The notes under the pieces: model-generated | Seen by the model: only the letters and a program-made list of their open reading frames with translations | Told to the model about the DNA's origin: nothing | Database searches by the model: none | Assembly: GCA_003220595.1 (NCBI GenBank) | Contig: QHSZ01000126.1 | Coordinates: forward strand, 1 to 45,584 | Direction: 5' to 3' | Length of the DNA: 45,584 nt | Source: Candidatus Rokuibacteriota bacterium | GTDB taxonomy: Bacteria > Methylomirabilota > Methylomirabilia > Rokubacteriales > CSP1-6 | In this document: piece after piece, positions 2,253-13,901 of the stretch | Numbering within the stretch: the first letter of the stretch is position 1 | Layout: each line of letters starts with the position of its first letter | Made by a program: the position numbers and the translations under genes

Positions 2253-2350
2253 GGAAGCGTCTAGGAACCCGGTGGGCCTCCCGGACTTCAAATCCGGCGG
2301 ACCGTTCTAGACAAACGGTCGATGGGTTCGACTCCCATACGCTTCCGCCA
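2253..2350 (+). tRNA. selC: tRNA-Sec, anticodon TCA
   Basis: This 98-nt gene has the hallmarks of a bacterial selenocysteine tRNA. The 8-bp acceptor stem is GGAAGCGT (2253-2260) with ACGCTTCC (2339-2346), followed by G73 and an encoded CCA (2348-2350). The anticodon stem CCGGA/TCCGG carries loop CTTCAAA with TCA at 2288-2290. The long variable arm GACCGTT/AACGGTC (2300-2306, 2314-2320) has a 7-nt loop. The T arm is ATGGG-TTCGACT-CCCAT. The D arm is the least clear part. It decodes UGA when delivered by SelB. It lies just upstream of a short operon containing selA and selB, and only 11 nt before the next start codon, so it is probably processed from a transcript shared with the downstream mRNA. 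Confidence 0.96.
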
Positions 2351-3394: not shown

Positions 3395-3679
3395 GTGCCG
3401 TCCCGGCTGGCGGACCTCATTCGGAAGGCGCGGCGCCTCGCGGCCGAGCGCGACAAGCTCATCGACGGCCTCGCGACCGAGTGGACGCGCGCCCTCCGTG
3501 GTCAGGGTCTCTCCGCGGCGGACCTCGACGAGCTGTGGGCCGGTCTCGTCGAGGAGGCCGTGCGCCGCGGCGGCCAGGCCGGCGACGGGAAGTGGACCGC
3601 GCAGGCCTGGCGCCACGAGACGCAGGAGGTCATCGCCCGCGTCCGCAAGAAGGTCGAGACCGCGCTCGATGAGCGCTGA
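3395..3679 (+). CDS. Small charged helical protein of unknown function
   Basis: A 94-residue ORF begins at GTG 3395, three bases after the preceding stop, and ends inside selA with an 11-nt overlap. The composition is rich in Arg, Glu, Ala and Leu. It is predicted mostly helical, with no signal or membrane segment. I recognise no family. Tight packing between two coding regions and the absence of stop codons in this frame support a real gene, though in DNA this GC-rich an open frame is weaker evidence than usual. Coupling to selA suggests co-expression. Confidence 0.6.
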   Translation: MPSRLADLIRKARRLAAERDKLIDGLATEWTRALRGQGLSAADLDELWAGLVEEAVRRGGQAGDGKWTAQAWRHETQEVIARVRKKVETALDER

Positions 3680-5060
3680 CCGCGACGCCGCGCTGCGTGG
3701 CCTGCCCTCGGTCGACCATCTCCTCCGCGCGCTCGCCGGCCGCCCCGAGCTCCAGGGGGTCCCCCGCGCGCGGTTGACCGCGCTCGTGCGCGAGACGCTG
3801 GACGCCGAGCGCCGGCGCGCGCGCGAGGGGCACGCGGCCCCGGCCGCGGCCGACGCGCTCGCCGTGCGCGTCGTGGAGCGTGCGCGGCGGACCGGCCTCT
3901 TCTCGCTCCGCCCGGTGATCAACGCCACCGGTGTCGTGCTCCACACGAACCTCGGCCGCGCGCTCGTGAGCCCGCTCGCGATCGAGCGCCTCCAGGCGGT
4001 CGCGGCCGCGTACTCGAACCTCGAGCTCGACCTCGCCACGAAGGAGCGGGGCTCGCGCTACAGTCACGTCGAGGCGCTCCTAGGGCGGCTCACTGGAGCC
4101 GAGGACGCGTTGGTCGTCAACAACAACGCCGCCGCGGTGCTCCTGGCGCTGGAGACGCTCGCCCACGGCCGTGAGGTCGTCGTCTCGCGGGGCGAGCTGA
4201 TCGAGATCGGCGGCGAATTCCGCATCCCCGACATCATGGTCCGCAGCGGCGCCGTGCTCCGCGAGATCGGGACGACGAACCGCACGCACCTCCGGGACTA
4301 CGCCGACGCGATCGGCCCGAGCACGGCGCTCCTCCTCAAGGTCCACACCTCGAACTACCGTGTCGTCGGCTTCACCGCCGAGGTCTCGTCACGCGAGCTC
4401 GTGGAGCTCGGCCGCGAGCGTGGGATCCCCGTCATGGAGGACCTCGGCTCGGGCTCGCTCGTGGACCTCCGCCCGTGGGGCTTCCCCTACGAGCCGACCG
4501 TGCCGGAGGCGGTCGCCGCGGGGCTCGACCTCGTCTCCTTCTCGGGCGACAAGCTCCTCGGTGGCCCGCAGGCCGGCATCGTCGTCGGCCGGCACGCCGT
4601 CGTCGGGCGGCTCAAGAAGAACCCGTGGAACCGCGCGCTCCGGATCGACAAGTTCACGATCGCCGCCCTCGAGGCCACGCTGTACGCCTACGAGTCGGGC
4701 GCCGCGCTCGAGACGATCCCGACACTCCGACTCCTCACCGAACCCCTCGCCGCGGTACGGGGCCGCGCGAAAGGCCTGCTCCGGCGGCTCACGCCCGCGT
4801 GCCGCGAGCGCCTCGGGGCGCGCGTCGTGGACGACCGCGCGCAGGTGGGCGGCGGCGCCTTGCCGACGGTGGAGCTGCCCACCGCGGGGCTGGTCGTGGG
4901 TCGCGACGCGCAGGCGGCCATGCGGCTCGACGCGCGCCTGCGCGAGGGCGACCCGCCGGTGATCGGGCGGATCGTGGACGACCAACTCCTGCTGGACTGC
5001 CGGACGGTGCTTGCCTCGCAGATCGGCGGGCTCGCAAAGGCGCTCGAAGCGCTCCAATGA
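3669..5060 (+). CDS. selA: L-seryl-tRNA(Sec) selenium transferase SelA
   Basis: The 463-residue product is a PLP enzyme that converts seryl-tRNA-Sec to selenocysteyl-tRNA-Sec with selenophosphate. An N-terminal helical domain (1-60, with PSVDHLL) is followed by the fold-type I core containing INATGVVLHTNLGRA. The motif SFSGDKLLGGPQAG places the Schiff-base lysine at residue 295, the same number as in E. coli SelA. Length matches the family. ATG 3669 lies inside the end of the upstream ORF, giving coupling, and longer in-frame extensions lack homology. The stop codon is part of an ATGA that opens a mini-ORF in the following repeat. The selenophosphate synthetase gene selD is not in the window. 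Confidence 0.96.
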   Translation: MSADRDAALRGLPSVDHLLRALAGRPELQGVPRARLTALVRETLDAERRRAREGHAAPAAADALAVRVVERARRTGLFSLRPVINATGVVLHTNLGRALVSPLAIERLQAVAAAYSNLELDLATKERGSRYSHVEALLGRLTGAEDALVVNNNAAAVLLALETLAHGREVVVSRGELIEIGGEFRIPDIMVRSGAVLREIGTTNRTHLRDYADAIGPSTALLLKVHTSNYRVVGFTAEVSSRELVELGRERGIPVMEDLGSGSLVDLRPWGFPYEPTVPEAVAAGLDLVSFSGDKLLGGPQAGIVVGRHAVVGRLKKNPWNRALRIDKFTIAALEATLYAYESGAALETIPTLRLLTEPLAAVRGRAKGLLRRLTPACRERLGARVVDDRAQVGGGALPTVELPTAGLVVGRDAQAAMRLDARLREGDPPVIGRIVDDQLLLDCRTVLASQIGGLAKALEALQ

Positions 5061-5125
5061 CCGACGCGCACCTGGCTCAGGCCACCCACGGTGCGCGCCG
5101 GCCTCGCGGACCCCGCTACACATGA
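5057..5125 (+). other. Mini-ORF 1 in the selA-selB spacer (22 codons)
   Basis: ATG 5057 overlaps the selA stop as ATGA, and the frame ends at TGA 5123-5125, which overlaps the next ATG. The peptide opens [12 protein letters not shown] and is Arg-rich at the end. No homologue is recognised. It may be a translational relay rather than a functional peptide, or simply a by-product of the repeat. Confidence 0.3.
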
Positions 5126-5181
5126 GCGACGCGCACCTGGCTCAGGCCACCCACGGTGCGCGCCGGCCTCGCGGACCCCGC
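5057..5181 (+). repeat. Two tandem copies of a 60-bp repeat between selA and selB
   Basis: Bases 5057-5116 and 5122-5181 are identical except at 5061/5126 (C versus G), a 65-bp period. Each copy opens with ATGA and ends in GGACCCCGC. The first is followed by TACACATGA, the second by unrelated sequence. Each carries a potential hairpin CACC-CAC-GGTG. The first copy starts within the last codons of selA. A diverged relative lies between gatA and gatB at 19764-19816, so this is a family and not only a local duplication. Confidence 0.9.
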
Positions 5182-5253
5182 GACTTGATCATAGGCTCGC
5201 CTCGGACGGCGGGGCCCCAGCCCCGCGACGTTCTGCGGCTCGCAAAGCCATGA
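5122..5253 (+). other. Mini-ORF 2 in the selA-selB spacer (43 codons)
   Basis: It opens [12 protein letters not shown], sharing 19 of its first 20 residues with mini-ORF 1, then continues with unrelated sequence to TGA 5251-5253. That stop overlaps the selB ATG as ATGA. No Shine-Dalgarno precedes it, and none precedes selB, so termination-reinitiation may carry ribosomes across. Coding status is unproven. Confidence 0.3.
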
Positions 5254-7154
5254 CCCGCCACGTCGTGGTCGGGACGGCCGGCCACATCGACCACGGCAAG
5301 ACCTCGCTGGTCAAGGCGCTGACCGGCATCGACACCGACCGCCTGCCGGAGGAGAAGGCGCGCGGCATCACGATCGACCTCGGCTTCGCGTTCCTCGAGG
5401 AGCCCGGCGGGCTCACGATCGAGATCGTGGACGTCCCCGGCCACGAGCGCTTCGTGAAGAACATGCTCGCCGGGGTCGGTGGCATCGACCTCGCCATGCT
5501 CGTGATCGCGGCCGACGAGGGCGTGATGCCGCAGACGCGCGAGCACCTGGCGATCTGCTCCCTCCTGCGCATCCGGGGTGGCCTCGTGGCGCTGACCAAG
5601 ACCGACCTCGTCGAGCCCGACTGGCTCGAGCTCGTGCGCGACGACGTCGCCACGCTGGTGCGCGCGACCTTCCTCCAGGGCGCGCCCATCGTGCCCGTGT
5701 CGGCGAAGACGGGCGCGGGGCTCCCCGAACTGCGCCAGGCCCTGCGGCGGCTCGCGGAGTCCGTCCCCGAGCGCGCCGTGGACCAGCTGGCGCGGCTGCC
5801 CATCGACCGAGTCTTCACGGTGAAGGGGTTCGGCACCGTCGTGACGGGGACCCTCGCCGCCGGGCGGCTCGCGGTGGACGACCGCGTCGAGGTGTACCCG
5901 AAGGGCGTGGAGGCGAAGGTCCGCGGCCTCCAGACCCACGGCCACCCCGTCGCCGAGGCGCGCGCCGGGCAGCGGACGGCCGTGAATCTCCAGGGCGTCG
6001 AGCGCGCGGCGCTGGAGCGCGGCGACGTCCTGGCGCACGCGGGCACGCTGGTGCCCGCGGTCCTCGTGGACGGCACGCTCGAGCTCCTCCCGGACGCGCC
6101 GCGCGGGTTGAAGACGCGGACGCGCGTGCGCTTCCACGCGGGGACGAGCGAGATCATGGCGCGCGTCCTCCTCCTCGACCGCGCGGAGCTCGCCCCCGGC
6201 GAGACCGCGTTTGCGCGCTTCCGGCTCGAGGCGCCGCTCGTCGCCCTGCCGAGCGACCGGTTCGTGGTGCGCTCGTACTCGCCGATCGTGACGATCGGGG
6301 GCGGGACGCTCCTCGACGTGGATCCGCCGCGCTTCAAGCGCAAGGCGCCGGCCCTGGTCGCGCATCTCACGCTCCTGCAGACCGGCGGCCCCGAGGTCGT
6401 ATTGGAGGAGCACGTCCGCCACGTCGGCGCCGCGGGCGTGCGCCTCACCGCCCTCTCGGGCCGCGTGCCCTTCGGCCCCGAGCGCCTGCGCGGCCTCCTC
6501 GACGCGCTCGTGGCGGCTGGCCGCGTGCTCGTCGTGGACCGCGACTGGTTCCTCCACCCGGAGAGCGGCAGCCGCCTGCGCGCGCTCGTCGTCGGCGCGC
6601 TCGCGGCCTTCCACCGCGCGCATCCTCTCCGACCCGGCATGTCGCGGGAGGAGCTGCGGGGGCGGTCGGGCGGCGCCGACGAGCGCGTCTTTGCGGCGCT
6701 CCTCGCGGCCCTGGAGACGGAGGGCGTCGTGAAGAGCGAGCGGGACAAGGTGCGGCTCGCGGCGCACGAGGTGCGGCTCACGCCCGAGCAGCAGCGCGTC
6801 GTGGACCAGATCGAGCAGGAGTTCCTCCGGGCGGAAGCGGCGCCGCCGAGCCCGGACGAGGCGCTCGCCCGCGCGGGCCTCCGCGGGGACGAGGAGCACG
6901 AGCTCTTCCAGGTGCTCGTCCAGTCGGGAAGGCTCCTCCGCGTCAAGGAGTCGCTCTTCTTCCACGCCCGGGCGCTCGACGCGATCCAGCAGAAGCTCGT
7001 CGCCATGCTCCGGGAGCGCAAGGAGATCGGTCCGGCGGACATCAAGGACCTCCTCGGCATCTCCCGGAAGTACGCGATCCCGCTCCTCGAGTTCTTCGAT
7101 CAGCGCCGCGTGACGACCCGCGTGGGCGAACGGCGGGTCTTGCGCGGGGGGTAG
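5250..7154 (+). CDS. selB: Selenocysteine-specific translation elongation factor SelB
   Basis: The 634-residue GTPase delivers Sec-tRNA to UGA codons at a SECIS hairpin. The G1 motif [12 protein letters not shown] lies at the N-terminus, with [13 protein letters not shown] (G3) and TKTD (G4). EF-Tu-like domains II/III follow ([17 protein letters not shown]), and then the C-terminal winged-helix array (about 380-634) that reads the mRNA hairpin. Length fits bacterial SelB. I start at ATG 5250 because homology begins at [12 protein letters not shown]; the open frame upstream runs through the tandem repeat and has no homology. There is no Shine-Dalgarno; the ATG overlaps the stop of mini-ORF 2. 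Confidence 0.96.
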
Positions 7155-11465: not shown

Positions 11466-12385
11466 CGGTGTTGCGCGTCGAGTCCGCGGCCGTCGGGATG
11501 CGGCTCGACCGGTGGGTGACCGAGCGCTTCCGCGAGCTGTCACGCGCGCGCGCCCAGGGCCTGATCGACGACGGCCACGTGCGGGTGAACGGCGGCCCCC
11601 GGAAGCCCGCGCACAGGCTCCGGGCGGGCGAGCTGGTCGAGATCGAGATCCCGCCGCCGCCTCCGGAGACGCTCACGCCCGAGCCCGCGGCGCTCGCGAT
11701 CGTGCACGAGGACGAGCAGGTGCTCGTCCTCGACAAGCCCGCCGGGCTCGTCGTCCATCCGGGCGCAGGCCACGCGCGCGGGACACTCGCCGCGGCGCTG
11801 CTCGCCCACGCCCCGGGGATCGCCGGTGTGGGCGGCCCACGTCGCCCCGGCATCGTGCACCGGCTCGACAAAGACACCTCGGGCCTGCTCGTCGTCGCCA
11901 AGACGCGCGCCGCCTACGACTCGCTCGTCGAGCAGCTCGCGCGTCGCACGGTGACGCGGACCTATGTGTCGGTCCTGCACGGCCGCGTTCGGTCGGACGC
12001 GGGCGTCGTGGACAAGCCGATCGGCCGCCACCCGCACGACCGCGTGAAGATGGCGGTGCGCCCGGCGGGCCGCGGTCGGCGCGCCGTCACACGCTATCGC
12101 GTCCTCGAGCGCTTCGCCGACTTCACGCTCGTCGAGGCGCGTCTCGAGACGGGTCGCACGCACCAGATCCGGGTCCACATGGCGTCGCTCGGCCACCCGG
12201 TCGCGGGCGACTCGGTCTACGGCGGCCGACGCCGGCGGCCGCTCCCTGTGCCCCTCCAGGGGCTGGCGCTCCACGCCGCGGCCCTCGCGTTCCTGCACCC
12301 CGGCACGGGTGAGCTCAGGGAATTCACGGCGCCGCTCCCGGCTCGGATCGGCCGGCTCCTGTCTCAGTTGCGCGACAGCCGCTGA
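11462..12385 (+). CDS. rluD: RluD-type 23S rRNA pseudouridine synthase
   Basis: The 307-residue product has an N-terminal S4 RNA-binding domain (LDRWVTERF...VRVNG) and the RluA-family catalytic core with HRLDKDTSGLLV, putting the catalytic Asp at 138, as in RluD. It isomerises uridines, classically in helix 69 of 23S rRNA; the exact sites cannot be told from sequence. The lspA-rluD arrangement is common in bacteria. It starts at GTG 11462, overlapping lspA by 4 nt. Confidence 0.92.
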   Translation: MTVLRVESAAVGMRLDRWVTERFRELSRARAQGLIDDGHVRVNGGPRKPAHRLRAGELVEIEIPPPPPETLTPEPAALAIVHEDEQVLVLDKPAGLVVHPGAGHARGTLAAALLAHAPGIAGVGGPRRPGIVHRLDKDTSGLLVVAKTRAAYDSLVEQLARRTVTRTYVSVLHGRVRSDAGVVDKPIGRHPHDRVKMAVRPAGRGRRAVTRYRVLERFADFTLVEARLETGRTHQIRVHMASLGHPVAGDSVYGGRRRRPLPVPLQGLALHAAALAFLHPGTGELREFTAPLPARIGRLLSQLRDSR

Positions 12386-12518: not shown

Positions 12519-13901
12519 ATGAAAGATCTGACGATCGTCATCCTCGCAGCGGGCGAGGGCAAGCGGATGCGCTCGCGACAGCCCAAAGTGCTGCACCCGC
12601 TCTGCGGCCGGCCGCTGCTCGCGTACGGTCTGAGGACGGCGCGGGCCCTCGCCGACCGGATCGTGGTCGTTGTCGGGCCGACCGCCGACGGCGTGCGCGC
12701 CGTGGCGGGCGAGGGCGTCACCGTCGTCGAGCAGCGCGAGCGCCTCGGCACCGGCCACGCGGTCCTCCAGGCGCGGCCGGCCGGCGGCGAGGGCACGATC
12801 CTCGTCCTGCCGGGAGACACGCCGCTCCTCTCGGGCGAGACGCTCGAGCGTCTCGTGCGCCACCACCGGTCCACGGGCGCGGTCGCGACGGTGCTCACCG
12901 CCGTCGTGGATCGACCGCAGGGCTACGGGCGGATCCTGCGTCAGAGCGGGCGGGTCAAACGCATCGTCGAGGACCGCGACGCGACGGACGACCAGAAGAA
13001 GATCGTCGAGATCAACACGAGCGTCTACTGCCTCGAGGCCAAGCGGCTCTGGAAGGCGCTCGCGGAGGTCAAGCCCGACAACGACCAGGGCGAGTACTAT
13101 CTCACCGACGTCATCGGCATCCTGGCGCGGGCGGGCGGGCGCATCGAGGCCGTCGCCGCCCCCGACCCGGTCGAGGCGCTCGGGATCAACGACCGCAAGC
13201 AGCTCGCCGCGCTCGCGGCGATCCAGCGCCGCCGCATCCTCGACCGGCTCATGGAGGCCGGCGTGACGATCCTCGACCCCGCGAGCACCTATATCGAGGA
13301 CGCCGTCACGATCGGCCCCGACAGCGTCGTGTACCCCCAGGTCGTCCTCGAAGGCGCGACGGCGATCGGCAGCGAGTGCGTCGTCGCGTCCGGCTGCCAC
13401 GTGACGGCCAGCCGCCTCGGCGACCGCGTGAGGCTCAAGCCCTACTGCGTGCTCACCGACTCGGTCGTCGAGGACGGCGCCGTGCTGGGGCCGTTCTGCC
13501 ATCTGCGACCGAAGTCGCACGTCGGCGCGGGCGCCGAGATCGGGAACTTCATCGAGCTCAAGAAGGCGAGGGTCGGGCGCAAGACGAAGGCGCACCACGT
13601 CGGCTACCTCGGCGACGCCGTCATCGGCGACCACGTCAACATCGGCGCCGGCACGATCTTCGTCAACTACGACGGCGCCGCCAAGCATCAGACGGTCGTG
13701 GGCGACGGCGCGTTCGTGGGGAGCAACTCGAGCCTCGTCGCGCCGCTCACCGTCGGAGAGGGCGCCTACATCGCCGCGGGGTCCGTCATCACCAAGGACG
13801 TGCCGGCCGACGCGCTCGTCCTCGAGCGCTCACCACTGGTCGTGAAAGAAGGCTGGGCCGCCCGCCGGCGCGCGACGCGGGCCGCCAAGCCGAAGGAATA
13901 G
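12519..13901 (+). CDS. glmU: Bifunctional GlmU (GlcN-1-P acetyltransferase / GlcNAc-1-P uridyltransferase)
   Basis: The 460-residue enzyme makes UDP-GlcNAc for peptidoglycan and outer-membrane glycans. The N-terminal pyrophosphorylase domain begins TIVILAAGEGKRM and includes LPGDTPLL. The C-terminal half is a left-handed beta-helix of hexapeptide repeats (about 240-440) with the acetyltransferase motif GNFIELKKARVG. I start at ATG 12519 (MKDLTIV); ATG 12504 would add five residues but overlaps a -10-like hexamer. glmS follows 6 nt after the stop, so the two consecutive amino-sugar steps are one operon. Confidence 0.95.
   Translation: MKDLTIVILAAGEGKRMRSRQPKVLHPLCGRPLLAYGLRTARALADRIVVVVGPTADGVRAVAGEGVTVVEQRERLGTGHAVLQARPAGGEGTILVLPGDTPLLSGETLERLVRHHRSTGAVATVLTAVVDRPQGYGRILRQSGRVKRIVEDRDATDDQKKIVEINTSVYCLEAKRLWKALAEVKPDNDQGEYYLTDVIGILARAGGRIEAVAAPDPVEALGINDRKQLAALAAIQRRRILDRLMEAGVTILDPASTYIEDAVTIGPDSVVYPQVVLEGATAIGSECVVASGCHVTASRLGDRVRLKPYCVLTDSVVEDGAVLGPFCHLRPKSHVGAGAEIGNFIELKKARVGRKTKAHHVGYLGDAVIGDHVNIGAGTIFVNYDGAAKHQTVVGDGAFVGSNSSLVAPLTVGEGAYIAAGSVITKDVPADALVLERSPLVVKEGWAARRRATRAAKPKE

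Follow-up and report, generated by a model that had tools for sequence, protein, structure and literature searches.

The closest described counterparts of the arrangement reported here are the MIRUs of mycobacteria. These repeats, whose inner ORF is oriented along the neighbouring genes, were reportedly first described in the senX3-regX3 operon, by Supply et al. in 1997, and their target in that account is said to be the DTGA at which a stop and a start codon of the operon overlap. MIRUs are 40–100 bp long and occupy 41 locations in M. tuberculosis H37Rv (PMC2734929), and the units in senX3-regX3 are 77 and 53 bp (PMC4213456). According to a 2025 review, they appear to be mobile and insert at start codons, where the inner ORF is coupled to the gene at −4 nt, and this coupling probably limits the harm of the insertion (PMC12548453). 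Translational coupling by termination-reinitiation is described at ATGA and TGATG overlaps (PMC6728339, PMC12548453). Nothing relevant to MIRU-like repeats outside mycobacteria, or to repeats of Rokubacteria, was found in the open-access literature searched. Another class of short repeats, REP/BIME, is palindromic and linked to Y1 transposases (RAYT).

The window analysed here is a stretch of 45,584 nucleotides from a genome of Candidatus Rokubacteria, organisms of soil or groundwater. It contains a sel locus in which selA and selB are separated by an insert composed of two units of a 65-nt repeat (A) and one unit of a second repeat (B) (Table 1). A preliminary description of this DNA had joined selA, two mini-ORFs and selB through three successive ATGA overlaps, and the sequence confirms all three. 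It had also given the two mini-ORFs a shared unit. The direct repeat is there (5057–5119 and 5122–5184, 63 nt at 97% identity with a spacing of 65; period 65 in Tandem Repeats Finder), but mini-ORF 2 extends over two distinct elements, A unit 2 and the B unit. The B unit has a 22-codon frame of its own, which closes at 5253 in the ATGA of selB. The first two ATGAs do not count as separate coincidences – since 65 mod 3 is 2, any 65-nt unit opening with ATGA and free of inner stops has its frame closed by the copy that follows.

The three frame shifts add to zero, so that selA and selB share one frame. Selenocysteine read-through of the selA TGA into selB was considered and set aside: nothing points that way, and the agreement of frames is a one-in-three chance. 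Homology of SelB to its relatives begins at codons 1–3. As had been noted for the second mini-ORF and selB, no Shine-Dalgarno motif of the GGAG, GAGG or AGGA type was seen before 5122 or 5250 when the sequence was inspected. The window is also stop-free in the common frame between the selA TGA and the selB ATG (5061–5249), and a 94-aa ORF with no Pfam match (3395–3679) overlaps the start of selA by 11 nt.

Table 1. Features of the sel locus and of the selA-selB insert, in positions of the window
Feature	Position	Strand	Basis or remark
tRNA-Sec gene, upstream in the sel locus	2253..2350	+	ARAGORN; Rfam RF01852, 68.3 bits
selA, L-seryl-tRNA(Sec) selenium transferase	3669..5060	+	NCBIfam TIGR00474, 591 bits; gene model
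ATGA, left border of the insert; selA TGA stop and mini-ORF 1 start overlap	5057..5060	+	sequence
Repeat A unit 1, 65 nt	5057..5121	+	75 A units aligned from the same genome
Mini-ORF 1, 22 aa	5057–5125	+	
ATGA linking A unit 1 and A unit 2	5122..5125	+	sequence
Repeat A unit 2, opens mini-ORF 2	5122..5184	+	
Mini-ORF 2, 43 aa	5122–5253	+	
TTGA, A/B border	5185..5188	+	out of phase as mini-ORF 2 stop; in-frame TTG start
Repeat B, one unit, TTGATCATAGGCTCGCC...GCC then ATGA	5185..5253	+	genome matches
ATGA, right border of the insert; mini-ORF 2 and the B frame end here, selB starts	5250..5253	+	
selB, selenocysteine-specific elongation factor	5250..7154	+	NCBIfam TIGR00475, 374 bits

Both repeats are dispersed. 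In the 4.06-Mb genome to which the window belongs there are at least 50 matches to the repeat stretch as a whole, at least 61 to the A unit and at least 39 to the B unit, these counts being lower bounds because part of the candidates was scored. 64 distinct A/B arrays were read in this genome, 49 of which contain A units, and the number of copies per array ranges from one to three. Of 60 relatives, 29 have related copies, and 28 of these 29 belong to the same family (Candidatus Rokubacteria); an exact-pattern scan for the A core through 84,980 species genomes returned only Candidatus Rokubacteria / Rokuibacteriota. The junctions that carry the repeat include two in a trp operon of the same genome (L152, contig C150). 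There are three units between trpF and trpB (11592–11786, array 62) and a single 66-nt unit between trpB and trpA (13003–13065, array 63), the latter running in frame into a TTG start of trpA.

Two further repeat configurations were seen in the course of this reading. The B core is found in reverse orientation as well, flanked by co-directional genes and with ATGA at both ends (L053 1501–1670 and L075 174–227), possibly as a separate family that shares the core. A third repeat (GGGGCCCCCCACGTCGA) lies directly 5' of A units that have no left DTGA (L012, L138, L143 and L152 1696).

Empty sites were found in relatives. In a relative of the same genus (G001), selA and selB meet in a direct GTGA overlap (ctGTGAAGCACGTC) with no insert, and direct overlaps, GTGA or ATGA, are frequent at this junction across the family, in several other genera too, as in G014, G011, G002 and G017. 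For 14 other arrays, five relatives were searched with the left flank up to the DTGA plus the right flank after the DTGA. The uninterrupted form was found for ten of these arrays (1, 2, 4, 5, 21, 23, 57, 58, 62 and 63). Their empty junctions are mostly ATGA or GTGA, and the best cases align without gaps across 284–300 nt; the exceptions, which align with no DTGA at the junction column, are array 57 in L170, array 58 in L179 and array 5 in L178.

The placement of all 64 arrays relative to genes was read with a home-made, codon-based gene caller trained on the window, whose genes it models sensibly, and the placement counts depend on it; gene starts are computed and the assemblies are fragmented. 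The arrays prefer the stop/start overlaps of operons. 37 of the 49 A-arrays have a co-directional gene on either side, both reading in the direction of the repeat (manual count). The left DTGA contains the TGA stop of a called gene in 17 of the 49, and the terminal DTGA is the downstream start in 27 and is in frame with it in 5 more. Where a downstream start falls within 10 nt of an A-array, it has A at +4 in 26 of 27 cases, compared with 35 of 82 other genes (43%, P = 3e-7). A terminal DTGA is present in 33 of the 37 co-directional arrays and in 5 of the 12 others (P = 0.002, manual counts), though P values such as these overstate independence, since the copies share ancestry. In about a quarter of the A-arrays the terminal DTGA is absent or the genes around the array are arranged differently.

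Of 58 DTGA-to-DTGA steps measured, 38 are 65 nt long, and 38 close the frame exactly. Among 29 last units, 23 end their frame in the start of the downstream gene (14 of 20 for A, 9 of 9 for B), with a B-to-gene step that is 65 nt and closed in all nine, while five of the six A-to-B steps are 63 nt. Followed from the upstream stop to the downstream frame, the chain is intact in 21 of 27 arrays, with 13.1 expected when the spacers are dinucleotide-shuffled with their length and ends kept; with the window array left out, it is intact in 20 of 26, with 13.0 expected. Given the shared ancestry of the copies, this excess says mainly that the design of the unit preserves the chain.

Evidence on the chain that is in part independent comes from the selA-selB junctions of other genera. 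Six junctions combine a DTGA at the stop of selA with a spacer of 60 nt or more, and 5 of them reach the SelB frame, with 1.1 expected. Without the window this is 4 of 5, with 1.0 expected, and when G005 and G026 are in addition counted once it is 3 of 4 (P = 0.03). The path consists of one hop in G016; in G005 and G026 it passes through a TTGA, beyond which it stays in frame with SelB, and in G013 it is in frame from a GTG that overlaps the selA stop. The chain is broken in L089, and there is no DTGA at the selA stop in L088, L098, L101 and L104. The spacers of G025, G013 and G005 hold repeats that are dispersed in those genomes, and the selA-selB junction has thus been invaded several times.

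The preliminary description had pointed to the selA-selB spacers of relatives, for copy number and a conserved ATGA phase, as a check. The chain is kept at five of the six junctions, the window among them; relatives carry other repeats at this junction, and the chain is not kept in L089 or in the four relatives without the DTGA. It had also counted a repeat retained with its ATGA lost as evidence against its proposal. Such a loss is partly seen, in that selB has no ATG in G005 and G026, though there the chain continues via the TTGA and in frame into SelB.

The loss of the selB ATG in G005 (L086) and G026 (L092) is near 1453–1501, and the frame is open from there into an A-like unit with an in-frame TTG; SelB may have a repeat-encoded N-terminus in these two genomes. 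In G013 (L091, 1345–1501) the selB frame runs from the GTG at the selA stop through a different dispersed repeat, and an N-terminal extension of 52 residues is possible for its SelB.

Several explanations of the insert other than tolerated insertion were weighed. The mini-ORFs might encode functional small proteins, as two similar open frames, each with a start and a stop, would suggest. Across the 75 A units, however, the three codon positions are equally variable (entropies 0.42/0.46/0.44), which indicates that the peptide is not selected, and the common core is read in two frames, as MSDARL... and, in one subfamily, as MTPRAP.... The arms around the core are 23+42 nt in 21 units and 24+41 nt in 8 units, both adding up to 65 nt, so that a difference of one base before the core is compensated after it; uncompensated arms (23+41 or 24+42) are found in 5 units. 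Taken per array, this compensation has P = 0.004, although each subfamily may be one event. Neither mini-ORF peptide has a Pfam match. What is conserved is the stop/start spacing, kept at 65 nt and open, and not the encoded peptide, and a small-protein function is hardly credible. An effect through RNA structure, or as a promoter or terminator between selA and selB, was judged quite unlikely. The main stem is not kept among the copies – pair 10-38 forms in 20% of the units and pair 12-36 in 53% – and a conserved RNA hairpin was rejected on the grounds that key pairs are broken in many or most of them, even though the fold of the window copy is more stable than that of its shuffles (z = −3.46). 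Scans of the selA-selB spacer found no sigma-70-type promoter, no intrinsic terminator and no Rfam match. In favour of a promoter is the precedent of M. tuberculosis, where separate expression of regX3 can come from the senX3-regX3 region with its MIRUs (PMC4213456).

That SelB of the window itself starts within the repeat, at GTG 5091, with a repeat-encoded N-terminal extension, is very improbable. ATG 5250 is at the conserved position and makes a −4 overlap, as do the starts downstream of other arrays; against this, the selB frame is open back to 5061, and in G005, G026 and G013 selB is without its usual ATG and the only in-frame starts are in or upstream of the repeat. The remaining explanation is the one put forward in the preliminary description, that the repeat has been selected as a regulatory relay for the ratio of SelB to SelA, with the number of units tuning the loss per termination-reinitiation step. 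The relay is consistent with the more-than-chance retention of the chain at selA-selB in several genera whose repeats differ, and with a selB that has no Shine-Dalgarno motif. But dozens of unrelated junctions carry the identical repeat family, the same-genus relative has no insert, several relatives have spacers without a chain, and selection merely against breaking the coupling would yield the same pattern. A selected relay is unlikely; the repeat might regulate SelB relative to SelA, but the pattern can be explained without such a role. Of the earlier proposal, the termination-reinitiation form survives, being kept beyond chance in both comparisons above. The setting of SelB against SelA by a device specific to sel finds no support, with the same repeat at trpF-trpB, trpB-trpA and many other places and its absence from the nearest relative.

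The selA-selB spacer is probably a composite insertion of dispersed MIRU-like repeats at a DTGA overlap, one that would preserve coupled translation by means of in-phase mini-ORFs. The ancestral junction would have been a direct stop/start overlap, GTGA or ATGA. The repeats would have entered at this overlap, with a DTGA remaining on either side of the insert and at each unit border. Every A or B unit provides roughly 65 nt of open frame, beginning in one DTGA and as a rule ending in a following one. After terminating at the end of selA, ribosomes would reinitiate on a mini-ORF and, after a further termination, on selB, with no need for a Shine-Dalgarno sequence; that they follow the chain in this way is plausible. 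With in-phase open units between DTGAs, an insertion would do little harm to coupled translation, and we infer that tolerance, not regulation, explains the pattern. The repeats themselves were probably mobile rather than spread by recombination.

The likeness to MIRUs is one of architecture. Both are short intergenic direct repeats (40–100 bp in M. tuberculosis, 65 here) found at tens of loci, with tandem copies. Insertion at a start codon, with an inner ORF at −4 nt to the gene, is present for the A-arrays. The DTGA target has its parallel in the ATGA and GTGA empty sites of relatives, for selA-selB and for several other arrays. Orientation along the genes is seen in the co-directional majority of A-arrays, although B occurs in the other orientation as well, and the senX3-regX3 unit lengths are 2 mod 3, as is 65. 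The differences are the Rokubacteria host, the combination of two families in one array, with B downstream, and the empty sites in relatives, which are shown here.

Known termination-reinitiation systems resemble the selA-selB junction in the chain of stop/start overlaps, the absence of a downstream Shine-Dalgarno motif and the co-directional operon genes. They differ in that the coupled frames here are copies of a repeat, with an unconserved peptide, placed in series between two genes. REP/BIME elements likewise have many short dispersed intergenic copies, some of them in arrays. The repeats described here have no kept stem, and no inverted repeat was found in the region; a Y1 transposase of the IS200/IS605 or RAYT type was discarded as the mover, as a match to PF01797 is found nowhere in the genome. 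The preliminary description had known of no described case in a sel operon. For the sel operon this looks right, but the architecture is described for mycobacterial MIRUs (PMC12548453). The principle is thus already known from MIRUs, while the repeat family, the phylum and the operon look new.

A broader proposition, to which we give about even weight, is that Rokubacteria have independently evolved a set of mobile mini-elements, A and B at the least and spread over several genera, whose target is the stop/start overlap of operon genes and which are built as in-phase mini-ORFs. Selection would act on the stop/start spacing and not on the peptide, and selA-selB would be a junction repeatedly invaded by different families. 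The results caution against taking each such spacer as gene-specific regulation. The dozens of natural insertions with empty-site relatives offer material on termination-reinitiation through one to four serial mini-ORFs, and also let one ask if selection keeps such chains. Insertion into junctions of coupled translation has so far been a topic for mycobacteria, and the finding suggests that it arose in other bacteria too.
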